From: Sneathiellales bacterium
GTDB taxonomy: Bacteria; Pseudomonadota; Alphaproteobacteria; JANQFL01
Direction of reading: 5' to 3'
NCBI GenBank assembly: GCA_028277845.1
Contig: JANQFL010000045.1
Location: forward strand, 1 to 51,426
Length of the DNA: 51,426 nt
Shown here one piece after another: positions 3,000-31,509 of the stretch (within the stretch, counting starts at the first letter, position 1; every line of letters begins with the position of its first letter). The position numbers were made by a program, and so were the translations under genes. The notes under the pieces were generated by a model. That model did not search any database. It worked only from the letters and a program-made list of their open reading frames with translations, and was not told the DNA's origin.

Positions 3000-3763
3000 A
3001 GAACCTTGCCGAAGCCGCGGTGACCGTCGACGAGGCCGCCCGTACCGCCACCGCCATTCCCCAGTTCGAGGGCGAGAACAGCTTCTCCGTCGACGAGGCC
3101 TACGCCGTGCAGGCCATGTCCATCGCCCGCCGCCTGGACCGCGGCGAGAAGCGGGTCGGCGTCAAGATGGGGTTGACCAGCAGGGCCAAGATGATCCAGG
3201 TCGGGGTCGACGAGGTGATCTGGGGCCGCCTGACCGACGACATGCGGGTCGAGGAGGGCGGCAGCATCTCCATGGCCGATTACGTGCATCCCCGGGTCGA
3301 GCCCGAAGTGGCCTTCCTGATGGGCGCGCCCTTGTCGGGCGACGTCTCGAACCTGGAGGCCATGGCCGCCGTCGAGGCGGTGGCGCCGGCGCTCGAGATC
3401 ATCGACAGCCGCTACAAGGACTTCAAGTTCGCTCTCGGCGATGTGGTGGCCGACAATTCGTCGTCGTCGGGTTTCGTGGTCGGCGACTGGCGGGCGCCGG
3501 ATATCGATTTCTCCAATCTGGGCATCGTGCTCTCGGCCGACGGCCGGCCGGTGCAGATCGGCTCCAGCGCCGCCATTCTCGGCAACCCGGTCCGTTCCCT
3601 GGTGGCCGCGGCGCGCATGGTGGCGCGCTGGGGCGAAACCCTGGAGCCGGGCTGGATCGTCCTGGCCGGCGGCGCCACGGCGGCCCATCCGCTGGCGGCG
3701 GGCATGACCGTGCGCTCGGAAACCCAGGACCTGGGCACGGTCGGGTTCAGCGTCGCCGACTGA
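2996..3763 (+). CDS. dmpH: 4-oxalocrotonate decarboxylase
   Basis: 255 residues, paralogous to the hydratase at 173-958. The decarboxylase (DmpH/XylI) type is indicated by [19 protein letters not shown] and by IWGRLTDDM in place of the hydratase's DYGMLYADM. It decarboxylates 4-oxalocrotonate to 2-hydroxypenta-2,4-dienoate and in known pathways forms a complex with the hydratase, so that the unstable dienol is not released. Metal-site and substrate segments [10 protein letters not shown] and [11 protein letters not shown] are present. The ATG overlaps the aldolase stop. No 4-oxalocrotonate tautomerase (about 62 residues) was found in the sequenced part of the operon; it may lie to the left. 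Confidence 0.87.
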
Positions 3764-3799
3764 CGCGGCCCGGCACGACGGACGGAAAGGCAGGCTCCC

Positions 3800-4393
3800 A
3801 TGACCGCGGCGGTCGACATCCAATTCTATTACAACTTCCGCAGCCCGTACTGCTACCTGGTGTCCAAGTCGGTGTGGGACATCTTCGACGACTACCGCGC
3901 CAACCTGGTGTGGCGGCCGCTGGGCGGCTGGTCGGGCCGCTCCGATCCGGACCGGGCCAAGGTGAAAATCCCGCTGGTGCGCCAGGACGTCAAACGCTGG
4001 TGTCGCAAGCTGGGCATTCCGTTCGTGCCGCCGCCGATCACCACCGAATCCACCCTGGCCGGCGCCGGTTCGCTGCTGGCGGAACGGGAAGGGCTGCTGC
4101 GGCCCTATATCGTCGAGGTCATGCGCGCCGAATGGGCCGAGGGGCGGGACATCGGTCAAGTTGACGTGCTGCGCGACGTGGCCGCAACGGTCGGCCTGGA
4201 CTCGGACGCCCTGATCGCCGCGACGGAAGACCCGGAAAACCTGGCCACCCTGGACCGTTACGCCGCGGAAGCCCAGGAGAAGGGCGTTTTCGGCGTGCCG
4301 TCCTTCGTCATCGGCGACGAGGTGTTCTGGGGCAACGACCGGCTCGACTTCATCCGCGACCATCTGCGCGAGCTGGGTCTGAGAAACGTGTGA
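3800..4393 (+). CDS. DsbA-fold isomerase, 2-hydroxychromene-2-carboxylate isomerase family
   Basis: 197 residues of the kappa-class GST-like/DsbA family. Members include NahD, the glutathione-dependent isomerase of naphthalene degradation. The N-terminal strand and catalytic loop QFYYNFRSPYCYLV places the glutathione-activating Ser at residue 15. The all-alpha insert covers roughly residues 60-150, and the conserved GVFGVPSFVIGDEVFWG with the cis-proline closes the thioredoxin fold. It starts 37 bases after dmpH, so it is probably the next operon gene and suggests that the pathway takes a ring-cleavage product from a polycyclic or substituted aromatic. The substrate cannot be read from sequence; many members are annotated only as 2-hydroxychromene-2-carboxylate isomerase-like. 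Confidence 0.85.
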   Translation: MTAAVDIQFYYNFRSPYCYLVSKSVWDIFDDYRANLVWRPLGGWSGRSDPDRAKVKIPLVRQDVKRWCRKLGIPFVPPPITTESTLAGAGSLLAEREGLLRPYIVEVMRAEWAEGRDIGQVDVLRDVAATVGLDSDALIAATEDPENLATLDRYAAEAQEKGVFGVPSFVIGDEVFWGNDRLDFIRDHLRELGLRNV

Positions 4394-18005: not shown

Positions 18006-18677
18006 ATGAGGACCTTGAACCGGCAATGGTTTGTCGACCGGCTGCGGGACGCCGGCCAGTCGCAACGGGCGCTCGCCCGGTTTCTCGAACTGGACGCGTC
18101 GGCCATCACCCACATTCTCAACGGCAAGCGCCGGCTGCAGCTCGACGAGGTGGAGCGGGTCGCCCGCTTCCTGTCGCGGCCGGTGGAGGAGGTGCTGACC
18201 CAGGCCGGCCTCGACCTGGGCGGCGAGGTGCGGGCGCCGTCGGTGCCGCTGATCGGCCATCTCGACCGAAACGCGGTGGTGCGGGTGCGGGACAAACAGC
18301 CCGAGATCGAGGCGCCCTTCTACATCGGCATGGGCGTGCAGGCGGTGCGGGCCAAGACCGCCGGCGGCGCCTTCGAGATCTTCGACGGCGCCTATCTCTA
18401 TTTCGGCCCGTTCTATTCGCCGGGCGCCGCCGCGCCCGAGACCTTCATGCAGCGCCTGTGCGCCGTGATGGTGAACGACAAGGCCGTGCATTTCGGCACG
18501 CTCAGGCAGGGCTACGCGCCGGGCACCTACAACGTGGTGTCCGAGGCCGGCGTGGTCGAGGACATCAGCGACGCCGTCATCGCGCCGATGCTCTACGTCA
18601 GCTACGAGCCCATGCACATCACCCCCGCCGCGCGCACGGCCCCCCGGGCAGCCGGCAGCGCACGGCGGTCGGCGTAG
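18006..18677 (+). CDS. XRE-family transcriptional regulator with a LexA/CI-like C-terminal domain
   Basis: 223 residues from the ATG at 18006; the frame is open further upstream but the XRE domain begins here. An XRE helix-turn-helix spans about residues 5-60 (RALARFLELDASAITHILNG then RRLQLDEVERVARFL). The C-terminal 120 residues (VPLIGHLD, GMGVQAVRAKTAGGAFEIFDGAYLYF) look like the S24 beta fold used for dimerisation, but I see no clear Ser/Lys self-cleavage pair. It may be a host regulator or a domesticated phage repressor. Its last 24 codons recur as a diverged copy at 23237-23307. Confidence 0.75.
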   Translation: MRTLNRQWFVDRLRDAGQSQRALARFLELDASAITHILNGKRRLQLDEVERVARFLSRPVEEVLTQAGLDLGGEVRAPSVPLIGHLDRNAVVRVRDKQPEIEAPFYIGMGVQAVRAKTAGGAFEIFDGAYLYFGPFYSPGAAAPETFMQRLCAVMVNDKAVHFGTLRQGYAPGTYNVVSEAGVVEDISDAVIAPMLYVSYEPMHITPAARTAPRAAGSARRSA

Positions 18678-18704: not shown

Positions 18705-19832
18705 TCAGCGCGTGAACAGGCGCAGATAGGCGGCAAACACATACCGCTTTCCGCGCCTGGCCCCGGTGTATTCGGCCAATATGCCCAGGCGCTCGAAATC
18801 CGCGATCAGTTTGTAGGCGGATGATGGCGACACTTGCGCCGCCGCCGCCACACCGGCGGCGTCGATGATGGGCTGTTGATAGAGGTGGTTCAGAACCGCT
18901 TGTGCCTTCGCCGCTCTGCTGCCCAGGGTCTGGATCTTACCCTCCACGTCCTTTTGCAGTTGCAGGATATCGTCGAAGGTGGCGATGCTGCTCTTGGCCG
19001 TTTCGACGATACCCACCAGGAAGAATTTGAACCATTGGAGCAGATCGTTGCTCTCCCTGACGCGCATCAGATTGTCGTAGTAGTGCGTGCGGTTCCGTTC
19101 GAAGAAATCGGACAGATACAGCACGGGTCTTTTCAAGATGCCTTTGGCCACGAGGTAAAGGGTGATGAGCAGCCGGCCGACGCGGCCATTGCCGTCGAGA
19201 AACGGATGGATGGTCTCGAACTGGTAGTGAACCAAGGCAACCTTGAGCAGTTCGGGAAAGTATTTGGTCTCGTCGTGGACGAACCGTTCCAGGTCGTTCA
19301 TCAAGTCGTCGATGGACGTATGCACCGGGGGCACGAAAATGGCATCTGACACCGAGGCGCCGCCGATCCAATTCTGGCTACGCCTGAATTCCCCCGGTTG
19401 CTTGTGGGCGCCGCGCCCCCCCTGAAGCAATGTCCCGTGTGTTTCGCGGGCGAGGCGTGCCGAGAAAGGAAGGTTTGCCAGCTTGTCGATGGCTTCGTTC
19501 ATGGCGGCTACGTAGTTCTGCACTTCCTCCCAATCGTCCCTTTTGTCGGCATCGATGTCTTCCCGGTCCAACAGGGCGTCCGCCATGTTGGTTTGCGTGC
19601 CTTCGATCTTGCTGGACTGGGTCGCCTCCTTGAGCACATGCATGCGGATGAACAGATCGATATTTGGAATGTAGTCTGAATACATGTCCAGCCGGCCGAG
19701 TTCCCTGTCGGCCTGTCCGAGCAATTGCAACAGCGCCATGTCATCGACGACCCAATCCCGGTGAATGGAATTGGGTTGAAAGCTTTTGTAGTGGTTCTGC
19801 TGAACGAATTGTCCGGCGACGAACGTCTTCAT
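18705..19832 (-). CDS. Fic family protein with N-terminal Fic_N region and winged-helix tail (SoFic-like)
   Basis: 375 residues. The inhibitory motif S73-SKI-E77-G78 precedes the Fic core (class II), and the catalytic motif HPFLDGNGRVGR is at residues 209-220. The tail from about residue 300 (AVLNHLYQQPIIDAAGVAAAAQVSPSSAYKLIADF, read in two helices) is a winged helix, so the protein probably also binds DNA. It is a different subfamily from the Fic gene at 10630, with different length, N-terminus and operator. AMPylation of a host protein is expected from the motif; the target is unknown. It is convergent with the XRE gene and divergent from the membrane-protein gene. Confidence 0.9.
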   Translation of the reverse strand: MKTFVAGQFVQQNHYKSFQPNSIHRDWVVDDMALLQLLGQADRELGRLDMYSDYIPNIDLFIRMHVLKEATQSSKIEGTQTNMADALLDREDIDADKRDDWEEVQNYVAAMNEAIDKLANLPFSARLARETHGTLLQGGRGAHKQPGEFRRSQNWIGGASVSDAIFVPPVHTSIDDLMNDLERFVHDETKYFPELLKVALVHYQFETIHPFLDGNGRVGRLLITLYLVAKGILKRPVLYLSDFFERNRTHYYDNLMRVRESNDLLQWFKFFLVGIVETAKSSIATFDDILQLQKDVEGKIQTLGSRAAKAQAVLNHLYQQPIIDAAGVAAAAQVSPSSAYKLIADFERLGILAEYTGARRGKRYVFAAYLRLFTR

Positions 19833-21418: not shown

Positions 21419-23080
21419 CTAATCGGCTTCGCCGAATTCCTCGATGGCAATGGCAAAATTCAGGGCCTGGGAGCCGCGCAGCCTGAAGGTGGTAATGCCG
21501 ATCAGACGTGCTTTTGCATCGAACAATCCGCCACCCGACGAGCCAGGGGAGATTTGCGCCGTTGTCTGGACGAGACGCTGCGTACCTATCTTGCGGAGGC
21601 CGGAAACAATGCCCTGGCCGAGCGTGTTCTCCAATCCGCTCGGTGAGCCGACCGTGTAGACGGGCTCGCCAACCTTGAGACTGTCATATGTCCGAATGGC
21701 CGTGACGAATTCGAGATCCCTGCCGACGGCTTCCAGAACACACCGGTCTCCTTTAACGTCACCCGAAACGACGCGCCCGATCGCGTACGTTTCGTCTTGT
21801 ACGATCACAATGAATTGCCGTCCCTTGACGACATGGCAGTTCGTGATCACGTGCCGCTTGGTGATGGCTACACCCGATCCTTGCGAGAGCTTCTTGCCGG
21901 ATATGAACGCTGCCCGGGAACGCGCGCTGTAGATGGTCCAAACGTAACGGTTGACCTCGGCAAAAATCTCTTCGGGCTGCTTGTCGGTCTTTGACGCCTT
22001 TGTCCCAGGTCCGGGAAGATGGACACGCGACCATTTGTAGTTTGCGGCGCGAGAGGCTGACGCAGCGGGTAAGTTCCGCTTTTTCTGTTTCGGCCTAATC
22101 GTTATCCCCGGTTTTCCTTTCGGTCGCGGAGCAACATTCTTTGCCTTGGGGATGGACGCGATCTTTGGCTTCTGCCGGGGAGGGGCCTCGAGCTTGGGCT
22201 CGTCCGTTCCAACAGGCCACACCCTGGCGGTTAGCTCGGCCAAGGTCCTGTATTTTTGGGATATGTTTAGTCCCGCGTCCGGGTGTTGAAGGTTCGTACA
22301 GGATTGTCTGTAACCTTGAAAACCCCATTGACGGTCCTTTTCGAAATCTCCTGTGTAGTTCGATCTGGCAACAAGACCCCAAAAGTAGGCCATGGTCGGG
22401 TTCTGGTTCTTTTCTATGGCCTCCTGATCTGTTTTCCGCGAAGAGTTGCCGGCAATGGCCAAGTACCCGAACCTGTAGTACCGGTGGAGTTCATATTGCG
22501 CGTGGCAGTTTCCTGAGATCGCGAATTTCTTCAGCGCGTCAAGCGTATCGTCATCCCCTTGTTCGGACTGGTGATATAGGACGGCTATTCCTGCCCAACC
22601 GCATCCCTTCCCCAAGGCCTCAAGGACGTATTGTCGCGATAGTCGGGGGCTCTTAGTCGTACTCTTTCCCAGCGAGTACATATTGCTCAACGCAGCGCCC
22701 GACTCACAGTGTCCCCGCTCGAATGCTTCCTTGAACCAGCGCACTGCTTGCTGACCGTCAACGTACGTCACACATTCCAGAGGCCTGCGGCGAAACAAGA
22801 CTTTCAGCGATTCGTGGGAATAGATAAAGCCAAGCGCCGCCATCGCCTGGACGTTGCCCAACGCCGCACCCTCCTTGTAAGGCCTAATGTCTTCCGCACG
22901 GCAGAACAGACTGTCTAGTCTTAGGGATCTACGGGTGCTTTTTATGTTGCGGTAAGACGGTGAGGAGACCGTGGACGGCGAAGTAATATCCGACGTGGCT
23001 CGGCGGTTCTTCGGTGTTTCGCATGCGCTCAAAGCGAGACCGGCGAGCAAGACATAGCCGTAACGGGATACTCTATGCAT
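21419..23080 (-). CDS. lipoprotein with Sel1-like repeats and a trypsin-like serine protease domain
   Basis: 553 residues. The N-terminus MHRVSRYGYVLLAGLALSAC is a lipoprotein signal with the lipid-modified Cys20. Residues 60-270 are helical with Sel1-type units (GAALGNVQAMAALGFIYS, AVRWFKEAFERGHCESGAALSNMY in pieces). After a basic, Pro/Lys-rich linker (about 290-350), a chymotrypsin-fold protease follows, with His416 in TNCHVV, Asp445 in VKGDRCVL and Ser515 in SPGSSGGGLF, so the catalytic triad is complete. It should sit in the periplasm attached to a membrane and degrade or sense damaged proteins, possibly scaffolded by the Sel1 repeats. The substrate is unknown. Confidence 0.82.
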   Translation of the reverse strand: MHRVSRYGYVLLAGLALSACETPKNRRATSDITSPSTVSSPSYRNIKSTRRSLRLDSLFCRAEDIRPYKEGAALGNVQAMAALGFIYSHESLKVLFRRRPLECVTYVDGQQAVRWFKEAFERGHCESGAALSNMYSLGKSTTKSPRLSRQYVLEALGKGCGWAGIAVLYHQSEQGDDDTLDALKKFAISGNCHAQYELHRYYRFGYLAIAGNSSRKTDQEAIEKNQNPTMAYFWGLVARSNYTGDFEKDRQWGFQGYRQSCTNLQHPDAGLNISQKYRTLAELTARVWPVGTDEPKLEAPPRQKPKIASIPKAKNVAPRPKGKPGITIRPKQKKRNLPAASASRAANYKWSRVHLPGPGTKASKTDKQPEEIFAEVNRYVWTIYSARSRAAFISGKKLSQGSGVAITKRHVITNCHVVKGRQFIVIVQDETYAIGRVVSGDVKGDRCVLEAVGRDLEFVTAIRTYDSLKVGEPVYTVGSPSGLENTLGQGIVSGLRKIGTQRLVQTTAQISPGSSGGGLFDAKARLIGITTFRLRGSQALNFAIAIEEFGEAD

Positions 23081-24821: not shown

Positions 24822-25487
24822 TTAAGCCGCTAGAAATTTTACTTTCTTATAGAGGGCGCCGTAGGCTCTACGGACTACTTTTTGCTGTAGTGGCCTTCCT
24901 TTTACCTTAGATGAAGCGATGACGATGTCAGGTGGCCGATACCTGGCGCAACCAATCGCTGCACTCATCTTGTCAAAATGAGATTTGTTTGGCGATCCCT
25001 GCCTCATGCTATTGATAATTTGTATATGCCACAGTTTATCATCAGCCTCGATAGTCCAATTGTCAGTACGAAGCAGTGGAATTCCCAATGTCTCGAAAAT
25101 TGCCATAATGAACGTCGCACAGGTGAGGCCATCTCCTAGGCCAGTAGCAACATAGTTTCCTTCTTCATCGAAATACTGGCGATTATCATCATAAAATATT
25201 GAGAAAGGTACCGAGTCTTCGGTGTTGTGCGTGGATATCATCGCGCACTGACCCGCTAGCAAACGTTTTTGTCTCTCAGTCAATCCAAGCCTAATCCAGA
25301 ATCCATCATCGATAACTTCAGTCCTCATAGCATGGTGACGAGCTAAATGAAGGAACATTGCGTCTTGCATAGGATCTTCCAAATAAAGAAGTCCTACGTG
25401 AAAAATCTCAGAGCCATTAAAATAGAAGCCGACAGCGGAAAGATCCGATTTTGATAATTTAGATTTATCAATCGAAAATATATCCAT
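24822..25487 (-). CDS. cassette protein 3: unknown, possible permuted papain-like enzyme
   Basis: 221 residues, last gene of a leftward AT-rich trio, starting 9 bases after the preceding stop. FHVGLLYLED (His30) and, later, GLTCATFIMAIFETLGIPLL (Cys123) follow the His-then-Cys order of permuted NlpC/P60 or LRAT-like papain folds, in which the Cys begins a helix as here. WHIQIINSM follows 30 residues later. If that reading is right, it could be an amidase, peptidase or acyltransferase. The last 40 residues are Lys/Arg-rich. There is no signal peptide, so it should act in the cytosol. The fold assignment is inference from short motifs; I recognise no named family. Confidence 0.6.
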   Translation of the reverse strand: MDIFSIDKSKLSKSDLSAVGFYFNGSEIFHVGLLYLEDPMQDAMFLHLARHHAMRTEVIDDGFWIRLGLTERQKRLLAGQCAMISTHNTEDSVPFSIFYDDNRQYFDEEGNYVATGLGDGLTCATFIMAIFETLGIPLLRTDNWTIEADDKLWHIQIINSMRQGSPNKSHFDKMSAAIGCARYRPPDIVIASSKVKGRPLQQKVVRRAYGALYKKVKFLAA

Positions 25488-25496
25488 AATTCTTGA

Positions 25497-26144
25497 TTAC
25501 TTAAGCCCTACTAGTTCGGCTTCGGCATCTTCTCCTGCCCTAACAAGCAACATCTCTGTTTCACGAAGCCAGGACTTCCAAGACGGCAAACTTGAACGGT
25601 ACTTATATGTCGCTCGTAAAAGGCCTATCGTAAAATCTAGATTGTATTTTTGGATGTCAGCTAAGCGGAAAATCCGATCAACTTGTTCAAAATTCTTGTT
25701 TTCTAGCAGTTTGGAAAGTTCAACAAACATACGTTTAAGGCTAGTCACCGACGATTTTGAACCGTACTCAATGTTGAACTCTTGAATCCAAGGACATTCG
25801 GATTCCAGAGATTGGCCCCAAGTTATATGTTCGGCATGGTGACCTATCTCATGCCGATCCGCGAAAAACAGGTATTGAGAAGCAGGTCCGGAAGTCGGCT
25901 CACTCAGCACAACGATCATCCATTTGGATTCGTCAGGCTTGGTCTCACTTTTGACATCGTCCCGAAGAGATTTCGCGATACTTCTCAAATCATCCGTCTC
26001 TATCAGAATAGGACGGTGAGCTGTCCCGGCATCTTCATGATATGTCTTCCGGTCCCAATGACTGGTGTAGCTGGTCTTCGATTGAGTGCCGGAATAGGCT
26101 TCCGGCACCTCGATTAAATTGTGCCAAGGATTGGGTGATGTCAT
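25497..26144 (-). CDS. cassette protein 2: unknown, with an HEIGHH motif
   Basis: 215 residues; its ATG lies 110 bases inside the preceding gene, so the two are translationally linked. The conspicuous feature is FADRHEIGHHAEHITWG (His98, Glu99, His102), which satisfies HExxH of zinc metalloproteases and is followed by further acidic residues that might give the third ligand. The motif lacks the hydrophobic helix normally found just before it, so catalysis is uncertain. The C-terminal 90 residues are helical (SLKRMFVELSKLLENKNFEQV, then a SWKSWL helix). No membrane segment or signal is visible. I do not recognise a family. Confidence 0.6.
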   Translation of the reverse strand: MTSPNPWHNLIEVPEAYSGTQSKTSYTSHWDRKTYHEDAGTAHRPILIETDDLRSIAKSLRDDVKSETKPDESKWMIVVLSEPTSGPASQYLFFADRHEIGHHAEHITWGQSLESECPWIQEFNIEYGSKSSVTSLKRMFVELSKLLENKNFEQVDRIFRLADIQKYNLDFTIGLLRATYKYRSSLPSWKSWLRETEMLLVRAGEDAEAELVGLK

Positions 26145-26838
26145 TGCTATTTGCCTCCAGTTTTCCTGCTACCCAAAAATCAGCGTCGATTTTGAAGCCA
26201 AGGCGATTGTCTTTAGGGTGTTTCACTAGGCCGTAATTGACTCTCATGGAATGCCCAGCATCACTCAGTGCAACAGAATAGGTGCCGCTAAACTCGCGAG
26301 TGTTTTCGTTTCCAAGAAAACTCTTGTATTGCTCACCAACCAAATTTGCCGAGATCAACTTTGAGAAATCAGATTCATTGAGATCTAGCAGCAGCGGATC
26401 AATAACATTGATGTATCTCAAGCCACATCTGCTGATATATGCGGGTTGATAAATTTCTACGAAAACATTGTATACGCTTTGTAAATGTTTTTTGAAATCT
26501 TCCCATCTTTTATACTTCGTACATGACAAAGAAATTGAAGAGCCAGATAGTCCAACTTTCCATATCCTGTCGTCAGATAAAAAATCATACGAGTTGACAG
26601 GTGTCTTTTTAGCGATCGGCGAACCAATTTCTTCTTCGCCGATTTCCATAGCAATTTCGTATCCAGAATTTTCTTTTAAAATTGGAAAGTCGAATTTGAT
26701 ATTGTCTTGGAAATCCGCAGGTAGCTCGGCTTCTACACGTAACAGCTTCGGAAACTGAAATTGGCAGATGACCTCAACCAGAGGGTTTGTTCGGTATCTT
26801 ACGCGTGGTTGCGTATCGAATGGAAATTGCAGTTTCAA
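26035..26838 (-). CDS. cassette protein 1: TIGR04255-like sporadically distributed protein
   Basis: 267 residues from a TTG start with GGAG 7 bases upstream. RYRTNPLVEVICQFQFP near the N-terminus and CGLRYINVIDP near residue 140 are the family-type segments of TIGR04255, a set of proteins of unknown function known for patchy distribution. A minus-strand TATAAA (26865-26870) upstream could be its own -10 box. The gene overlaps the next by 110 bases. It is clearly AT-richer than the prophage primase upstream or the GNAT gene beyond the cassette, and uses rarer codons, pointing to recent transfer. In the cassette it may act as sensor or regulator, but that is speculation. Confidence 0.72.
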   Translation of the reverse strand: MKLQFPFDTQPRVRYRTNPLVEVICQFQFPKLLRVEAELPADFQDNIKFDFPILKENSGYEIAMEIGEEEIGSPIAKKTPVNSYDFLSDDRIWKVGLSGSSISLSCTKYKRWEDFKKHLQSVYNVFVEIYQPAYISRCGLRYINVIDPLLLDLNESDFSKLISANLVGEQYKSFLGNENTREFSGTYSVALSDAGHSMRVNYGLVKHPKDNRLGFKIDADFWVAGKLEANSNDITQSLAQFNRGAGSLFRHSIEDQLHQSLGPEDIS

Positions 26839-26941
26839 GTAGAATCTCCAATATGATCATTGAATTTATACAGCACCAAAAACGGAATGAGAATCCCTCA
26901 CAGGCAATTGATTTGAGAGCATAGATGAAGGCTGTTCCCCC

Positions 26942-29839: not shown

Positions 29840-30460
29840 ATGGCTGGTATTGCAGATAAAATCATGCGCCGTATCCGTTCTCGCGGTCGCGGGAGGTGGG
29901 TTTGCACACCGAGGGATTTTCTGGATCTTGGCAGCCGTGTCGCCGTGGATCAGGCGTTGCACCGGCTTGTCCTAGCCGGGACGCTGCGCCGTGTGAGCCG
30001 AGGGCTGTACGATCTGCCACGCATGAGTGCCATCTTGAAGCGGCCGGCGCCGGTGGATATCGATGCGGTGGTTCAAGCATTGGCGCGCCGTGACGGTGTG
30101 ACGGTGATGCCCGACAACGTGGTTGCCGCCAATCGGCTGGGGCTGACGACCGCCGTGCCGGCGAAGGCGCGTTATGTCACGGATGGGGCAAGCAGGAGGA
30201 TCGAGGTTGATGGGCGCACGATTCACCTTCGCCATGCACCTCCCGGCGTGATGCGTTGGGCGGGGCGTCCGGCTGCGCCGGTCGTTCAGGCGCTGCAGTG
30301 GCTGGGGGCCGATGCCGCCGGCAGCCCCGATGTGTTTGCCGCTCTGCAACGGAACCTTTCCGACCAGGTGAAACGGAACCTCGCCGCCAATCTGCGCGAT
30401 CTTCCCGGTTGGGCGGTGCCGGTGGCGCGGCGTCTGGTGGGCGACACAGCAACGGCATGA
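29840..30460 (+). CDS. abiEi: AbiEi-family antitoxin (type IV TA)
   Basis: 206 residues. The N-terminal winged helix (KIMRRIRSRGRGRWVCTPRDFLDLGSR in two parts, then LVLAGTLRRVSRGLYDLPR) is typical of AbiEi/DUF6088 antitoxins. The C-terminal domain contains VTVMPDNVVAANRLGLTTAVP and the short strand IEVDGRTIHLRHA. AbiEi neutralises the nucleotidyltransferase AbiEii without stable binding (type IV) and represses the operon. The stop overlaps the toxin ATG by 4 bases. A strong promoter and palindromes lie just upstream. The location inside a prophage suggests superinfection exclusion or element maintenance. Confidence 0.9.
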   Translation: MAGIADKIMRRIRSRGRGRWVCTPRDFLDLGSRVAVDQALHRLVLAGTLRRVSRGLYDLPRMSAILKRPAPVDIDAVVQALARRDGVTVMPDNVVAANRLGLTTAVPAKARYVTDGASRRIEVDGRTIHLRHAPPGVMRWAGRPAAPVVQALQWLGADAAGSPDVFAALQRNLSDQVKRNLAANLRDLPGWAVPVARRLVGDTATA

Positions 30461-31509
30461 TCGACGCCTTCCGGCAGTTCCAGGCATTCCCCGGTCGAGA
30501 CAGGCAGGATATTTTCGAGGCGACGGCGGCCCGACTCGATACGGTGGCGCCTTACGTGGAGAAGGATGCCTGGGTTTGCCTGTTATTGGACGTGCTGTTC
30601 AATCACCTGCAAGGCGACCGGCCCAGCCCTTTGTTCAAAGGCGGTACGTCGCTTTCCAAGGCATTCGGGCTGATAGACCGGTTCTCCGAGGATATCGATA
30701 TCGTCCTTGACCGGGAGGGGCTGGGTTTCGGGGATGGCCGGGATCCGACCGTGCCGGGTGGCGAACTGTCCAACAAGGCTCGCAAGCGTCTGTTTGCCGA
30801 TCTCAAGACGGCCTGCGCCGACTATGTGCAGGGCCGCCTTTGCGATGATTTGACGGCCAAGCTTGACGACATTGCACCGGGATGCGTCATCACGCCCGAC
30901 GAATTCGACGGAGACCGCGCTACACTTCTCGTTGCGTACCCCACGCTCTTCCCCGGCAACGAGGCCGACTACGTGGCGCCCCGCGTCAAAATCGAGTGCG
31001 GCGCGCGATCCGCCATGACGCCCGCCCGAGATAGCGGGGTGACGCCTTACATGGCCGACGAACTGTCGGGGACTGTCGATGGTTTCGCGGTGGCGGGCGT
31101 CGTCGCCATAGCCCCGGAGCGGACATTTTGGGAAAAGCTGTTGATTCTGCACGGCGCATATTGCGGCTATCGGGACCAACGGAGGATGCCCCAAGACCGG
31201 AACCGGATTTCGCGGCATTACTACGACGCGGCCTTGCTGACCGATAGCGGTGCCGGTCGCACCGCGTTGGCCGACCATGATCTTTTGGCGGCAGTGCGGG
31301 AGCATAACCTCATAGCTTTCCCGGCTTCCTGGAAGCGTTTTGAAGAGGCCGTACCCGGAGGTATCCGCCTGGTTCCCGAAGGGGCTCTCGCGAATGCCAT
31401 AAGGCGCGACTACGCCGCCATGCAGGATATGATCTATCGCAACGCACCGGACTTCGAGTGGGTCATCGAACGTCTCAGGGAAGCCGAAGAGACCGTCAAT
31501 AGCAAATAG
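30457..31509 (+). CDS. abiEii: AbiEii-family nucleotidyltransferase toxin
   Basis: 350 residues. The DNA polymerase-beta-type nucleotidyltransferase signature is complete: FKGGTSLSKAFGLIDRFSEDIDI gives the GG-T/S loop (residues 62-68) and the metal-binding Asp79 and Asp81 (motif written here within 20-residue limits as KGGTSLSK and SEDIDI). A conserved ERTFWEKLLIL (motif IV) lies near residue 223 and VKIECGARS near 175. AbiEii/MenT-type enzymes block translation by adding nucleotides, for example to tRNA ends. Translation is coupled to the antitoxin through ATGA. The toxin is expected to be active when phage infection disturbs the antitoxin; the tRNA target here is not known. Confidence 0.9.
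   Translation: MIDAFRQFQAFPGRDRQDIFEATAARLDTVAPYVEKDAWVCLLLDVLFNHLQGDRPSPLFKGGTSLSKAFGLIDRFSEDIDIVLDREGLGFGDGRDPTVPGGELSNKARKRLFADLKTACADYVQGRLCDDLTAKLDDIAPGCVITPDEFDGDRATLLVAYPTLFPGNEADYVAPRVKIECGARSAMTPARDSGVTPYMADELSGTVDGFAVAGVVAIAPERTFWEKLLILHGAYCGYRDQRRMPQDRNRISRHYYDAALLTDSGAGRTALADHDLLAAVREHNLIAFPASWKRFEEAVPGGIRLVPEGALANAIRRDYAAMQDMIYRNAPDFEWVIERLREAEETVNSK

Follow-up and report, generated by a model that had tools for sequence, protein, structure and literature searches.

A recurrent three-gene cassette of mobile elements joins exchangeable front proteins, including TIGR04255, to a predicted permuted papain-like enzyme

Three leftward genes, here called P1, P2 and P3, form a compact cassette in the window, by which we mean the whole stretch of 51,426 nucleotides of a Sneathiellales bacterium that was analysed (Table 1). 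The P1 and P2 genes share 110 bp and a gap of 9 bp separates P2 from P3, so that the overlapping or tightly spaced arrangement given in a preliminary description of this DNA is borne out by the coordinates. A Shine-Dalgarno-like GGAG lies 8 nt 5' of the TTG start of P1, and a GGAGG lies 9 nt 5' of the ATG of P2. The deviant base composition of the trio, also pointed out in that description, was confirmed: its G+C content is 0.43, the window averaging 0.633 (sd 0.054 among 2-kb stretches), which makes it the lowest-G+C 2-kb stretch of the whole window. The TATAAA box that had been proposed upstream of P1 is present in the sequence, and this position gave no sigma-70-like site in the promoter scan. 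Promoter-like sites in the trio region numbered 7, against 3.8 +/- 1.9 in shuffles, and terminator-like stem-loops were about equal in number to those of shuffles (2 versus 1.8).

Table 1. Coordinates of the cassette, of its neighbours in the window and of related features at other loci (positions without a locus name refer to the window)
Feature	Position	Strand	Remarks
P1, member of the TIGR04255 family, exchangeable first gene of the cassette	26035-26838	-	267 aa, TTG start
P2, middle protein of the cassette	25497-26144	-	215 aa, ATG start
P3, predicted effector and predicted cysteine enzyme of the permuted NlpC/P60 (papain-like) type	24822-25487	-	221 aa, ATG start
HEIGH pentapeptide in P2 (residues 98-102), site not conserved	25839-25853	-
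TATAAA-containing stretch 5' of P1, candidate promoter element without statistical support	26855-26875	-
Terminator-like stem-loop just 3' of P3	24786-24804	-	promoter/terminator scan
AbiEi/AbiEii pair	29840-30460; 30460-31509	+; +	PADLOC E 1e-54 and 1e-91
Fic-domain protein	18705-19832	-	PADLOC SoFic, E 6e-120
Trypsin-like protease gene	21419-23080
76-bp direct repeat	18571-18646; 23237-23312		copies 89% identical
PADLOC candidate family PDC-S31, locus L011	3546-4589	-	E 2e-26
Multiubiquitin-ThiF-DUF6527 operon, locus L005	1588-3885
ORF in the P1 place 5' of P2-P3, locus L066	~3690-4310	+	~200 aa
Second type of TIGR04255 cassette, phage contig L070	4001-5746
Second type of TIGR04255 cassette, phage contig L072	3998-5754

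The trio is bordered on the left by a GNAT gene with 70% G+C and on the right by a phage primase gene, followed by the AbiEi/AbiEii pair, the small and large terminase genes and a gene for a GP7-type capsid protein. The GNAT gene on one side and the phage genes on the other make the trio the outermost cargo at one prophage end, in agreement with the placement at a prophage edge in the preliminary description. Since a search of the window contig found no integrase, and the two ends of the prophage share no 15-bp repeats, its ends are not defined. The AbiE pair, a phage-defence or toxin-antitoxin system, lies about 3 kb from the trio in the same prophage; its proteins are unrelated to those of the trio, and it is a neighbour only. 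Elsewhere in the window, a gene for a Fic-domain protein occupies a lower-G+C stretch, and the two copies of a 76-bp direct repeat flank about 4.7 kb containing this gene and a trypsin-like protease gene, a segment that was possibly inserted or duplicated.

We found that the trio recurs as a unit. A tblastn search of plasmids with P3 revealed the same three-gene order on a Rhizobium megaplasmid and on two small plasmids of Acinetobacter and Psychrobacter, and profile searches added chromosomal copies from the class and phylum samples and from Thalassospira, Rhodopseudomonas and Stenotrophomonas, as well as 18 P3 loci on viral contigs. The trio is thus found on plasmids, in prophages and in chromosomal insertions, and is carried by distantly related bacteria. 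The set holds 26 P3 loci, the last of which begins at P3 and therefore stands outside all counts of upstream genes. In the profile scan, every one of the 25 non-redundant loci with upstream sequence had the three genes in the same order and on the same strand. An integrase directly adjoins the trio in at least six loci (L011 and, in their contigs, L053, L054, L059, L060 and L063). Many of these loci were drawn from a virus collection, which biases the sample to prophages. The cassette is sporadic, being present in 3 of 385 genomes of the class and in 4 of 398 of the phylum, with the genome of the window counted in both. When four P3 proteins were used as queries against 50,697 sequenced phage records, no match was obtained, which fits genes that benefit the lysogen or the plasmid-bearing cell and have no lytic role; low sampling of the carrier hosts may be another cause.

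The preliminary description took P1 for a TIGR04255-like member of a sporadically distributed family, and this assignment holds: P1 matches the NCBIfam model over its full length (positions 1-252 of 252) with an E-value of 1.4e-44 and 152.8 bits, the curated cut-off being 30. The front gene of the cassette is nevertheless not always of this family. TIGR04255 occupies this place in 7 of the 25 loci, and in 17 it is taken by another protein, P1B. At the one remaining locus, L066, an unrelated ORF that neither P1 profile matches stands in the place of P1. Profile comparisons of the TIGR04255 P1 (P1A) with P1B gave E-values of 0.4, 0.99 and 0.085 and a match at the C-termini that is in register but weak, and P1B is apparently unrelated to the TIGR04255 P1. 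P3 and P1 trees were built, and the P1 types cluster on the P3 tree; because of weakly supported deep branches and a long window row, the trees do not fix the number of P1 swaps.

TIGR04255 is commoner than the trio, being found in 17 of 289 genomes of the class, and it heads other cassettes with different partners. For example, in L032, L033 and L047 it is followed by an HTH protein and then by one that carries the motif ISQTCD or TQTCD. In a second arrangement, the middle protein is about 160-230 aa long and often contains a WDG motif, and the third is about 140-170 aa long; it was found at L034, L037, L040, L041, L043, L045, L048, L049 and L050 and at the viral loci L070 and L072, and in L024 a WDG-type middle gene also lies downstream of TIGR04255. 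Given these other partnerships, P1 is best described as an exchangeable front end. The AlphaFold2 model of P1 (pLDDT 86.8, pTM 0.84) has guanidino kinases as its best fold matches (Z 8.7, 3.7 A over 183 residues), and unrelated models reach 7-8, so that this match, only just above background, was not taken as evidence that TIGR04255 is a guanidino kinase. A PDB sequence search with P1, the P2 C-terminus and P3 returned nothing meaningful.

P2 and P3 have no match above cut-off in Pfam or NCBIfam. P2 lies directly 5' of P3 in all 25 loci with upstream sequence and has a variable N-terminal part, its conservation being confined to a C-terminal domain of about 65 aa (LLRxT...W...LxGL), in which R177, W189, L211, G213 and L214 are invariant in an alignment of 13 sequences. 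A search for this domain outside the cassette in 240 genomes of the class recovered only the gene of the window itself and one marginal hit containing a stop. Separate occurrence of the three genes had been named as an observation that would speak against a functional unit, and here the outcome is divided: P2 and P3 were never found apart, while the TIGR04255 family of P1 often occurs without them. The HEIGH pentapeptide, which the preliminary description read as a possible metallopeptidase site, occurs in no other P2 homologue, and an HExxH motif of any kind is present in only 1 of 25.

Among the 26 P3 sequences compared, H30 and C123 are invariant (26/26 each), as are W153, R182 and P185, and H47 is conserved in 23, with Asp in the other three. 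Position 95 is Tyr in 25 of the 26 and Phe in the window copy. Judged from the alignment, this tyrosine possibly corresponds to the one conserved in NlpC/P60 enzymes (Tyr127 of BcPPNE), and with Phe at this position the window copy could differ in activity. The AlphaFold2 model, built from 20 sequences, is confident (pLDDT 90, pTM 0.90); in it, H30 and H47 fall on adjacent strands and a helix starts at C123. The invariance of H30 and C123 and the papain-like fold of the model support the His30/Cys123 dyad, with its Cys before a helix, that had been proposed from a single sequence. Foldseek alone gave no PDB match below an E-value of 0.1 with the P3 model. With a second-look aligner, the best PDB match was 3kw0, BcPPNE of B. 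cereus (Z 8.9, 132 residues, 3.3 A, 13% identity), followed by Aichivirus 2A, HRASLS3 and H-REV107 (Z 6.0-5.0), with the next match at 3.4; we take these top four matches to be permuted NlpC/P60-type proteins. The best viral-model match of P3 is a protein annotated as YaeF/YiiX C92, and a search of PHROG gave a weak match to one family of unknown function. For 10 P3 members, no Pfam family scored above cut-off, the LRAT and C92 families included; below it, only NLPC_P60 appeared, at an E-value of 0.099 in the window copy. P3 is accordingly modelled as a permuted NlpC/P60 enzyme of the YiiX/LRAT/HRASLS kind, a prediction in which the fold is well supported.

Comparison with known systems places P3 near several characterized groups. 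The LRAT/HRASLS proteins (H-REV107, PLA2G16), which comprise acyltransferases and phospholipases A1/2, match P3 with Z 5.0-5.2 (4dot, 7c3z), and the order and spacing of their His-His-Cys residues presumably resemble those of H30, H47 and C123. They show no sequence-level match to P3, which in addition has an extra helical C-terminal half and sits in a bacterial mobile cassette. With the YaeF/YiiX-like enzymes (BcPPNE, 3kw0; MEROPS C92), P3 shares the His-polar-Cys order and the papain-like core. The third residue of the triad is Glu in BcPPNE but His or Asp in P3, and P3, unlike these enzymes, is always found in the three-gene cassette. Members of the permuted NlpC/P60 group have a triad of Cys, His and a polar residue together with a conserved tyrosine, and their hydrophobic pocket is suited to lipids (Xu et al., PMC3142127); a later classification describes 3kw0 as a lipid amidase (PMC10318531). 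Tox-Act1, a type VI secretion effector, is a permuted NlpC/P60 phospholipase acting in a conflict setting, as we propose for P3 (PMC12994826); it is likened to P3 by description only, and differs in being secreted and accompanied by an immunity protein, whereas P3 stands in an operon with P1 and P2. The papain-like permuted fold and the TIGR04255 family are already known, the NCBIfam model (sporadTIGR04255) naming the family without a function; the libraries and open-access papers searched contain neither P2 nor this branch of P3, nor the three genes in their fixed combination. In this open-access literature, outside which most subscription papers lie, we found no paper on TIGR04255 or on a permuted NlpC/P60 effector in phage defence.

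Known or candidate defence genes were found near three trio loci, a figure that comes from few scanned loci and has no background rate beside it. Besides the AbiE pair of the window, a gene of candidate family PDC-S31 lies directly 3' of P3 and near the integrase in L011, and on the Rhizobium plasmid (L005) a multiubiquitin-ThiF-DUF6527 operon directly adjoins the trio. UmuDC adjoins another copy (G733) and was counted as prophage context, not as defence. P1, P2 and P3 themselves matched no model of PADLOC-DB 2.0.0 at E-values up to 1. With its fixed order next to prophages, integrases and some defence genes, the trio recurs in the manner expected from the preliminary description, and the antiviral or toxin role suggested there is plausible from context.

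We propose, at about even confidence, that the trio is one mobile conflict cassette in which P1 is a sensor, P2 an adaptor and P3 a latent effector acting on membrane lipids or on acyl or amide bonds, leading to anti-phage arrest or death. Sequences and models show that the three genes form a conserved and well-supported unit carried by mobile elements, in which P1 is exchanged and P3 has a papain-like fold with the residues of a catalytic site; the activity of P3, its lipid-like substrate, sensing by P1, coupling by P2 and the anti-phage outcome are what we infer. P3, as a cysteine acyl- or amide-hydrolase or an acyltransferase, would most likely be the effector. P2, which is found only with P3, would probably hold or couple it, and P1, the variable front end, would probably sense an invader or a disturbed state. 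Once P1 is triggered, P3 could be released to attack membrane lipids, acylated molecules or targets held by amide links, and the infected cell would stop growing or die before a competing phage finishes. More tentatively, since the wider claim is somewhat doubtful, the trio may represent an undescribed class of modular immune cassettes in which interchangeable sensors (TIGR04255, P1B or others) act through the adaptor P2 on a latent LRAT/YiiX-like effector directed at membrane lipids or acyl groups, with TIGR04255 as a general front end that also leads cassettes whose second and third proteins differ.

The trio could instead be a toxin-antitoxin addiction module, in which P3 is a lipid- or acyl-directed toxin neutralized by P1 and P2 and the cassette mainly stabilizes prophages and plasmids. 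Its compact overlapping operon, its presence on plasmids of 6.6-6.9 kb and beside integrases, and the precedent of one permuted NlpC/P60 enzyme already known as a bacterial toxin (PMC12994826) are consistent with such a module, but simple modules of this kind seldom have three genes, an exchangeable first gene and so large a conserved middle domain, and neither Pfam nor NCBIfam recognizes a DNA-binding domain in P1 or P2. We regard this explanation as rather unlikely, though a serious one, and it is compatible with a role in defence. A prophage moron that alters the host envelope or acylated surface molecules without killing, as in superinfection exclusion or lysogenic conversion, would suit the integrase-proximal position of the trio and a superfamily that acts on lipid or acyl substrates (PMC3142127). 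It is improbable, given that the trio also occurs on plasmids and at non-prophage chromosomal sites (Thalassospira, Stenotrophomonas) and that the swapping of P1 is left unexplained.

The remaining alternatives assign other chemistries to the proteins. PPPDE enzymes are likewise permuted papain-like proteins (PMC3142127, PMC10318531), and the Rhizobium copy adjoins a multiubiquitin-ThiF operon, so that P3 might be thought an isopeptidase or deubiquitinase-like enzyme acting on ubiquitin-like conjugates. Such a neighbourhood was seen in 1 of about 25 loci, however, and the cassette itself contains no ubiquitin-like gene; PPPDE is also missing among the P3 fold matches listed, an absence that excludes nothing. 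We consider this activity quite improbable. That P2 is a zinc metallopeptidase partnering a papain-like peptidase has the HEIGH of the window's P2 in its favour, but with the motif so poorly conserved among homologues and the conservation of P2 lying in its C-terminal domain instead, we reject a zincin site there and find the idea scarcely credible.

In the preferred reading of the trio as a mobile conflict cassette, the modular build, with a swappable P1 and a fixed P2-P3 pair, yields clear and cheap predictions. If it is true, a permuted papain-like and probably lipid-acting effector would join the enzymes used in conflicts of mobile elements, and the TIGR04255 family, whose name reflects its sporadic occurrence, would gain its first functional frame.
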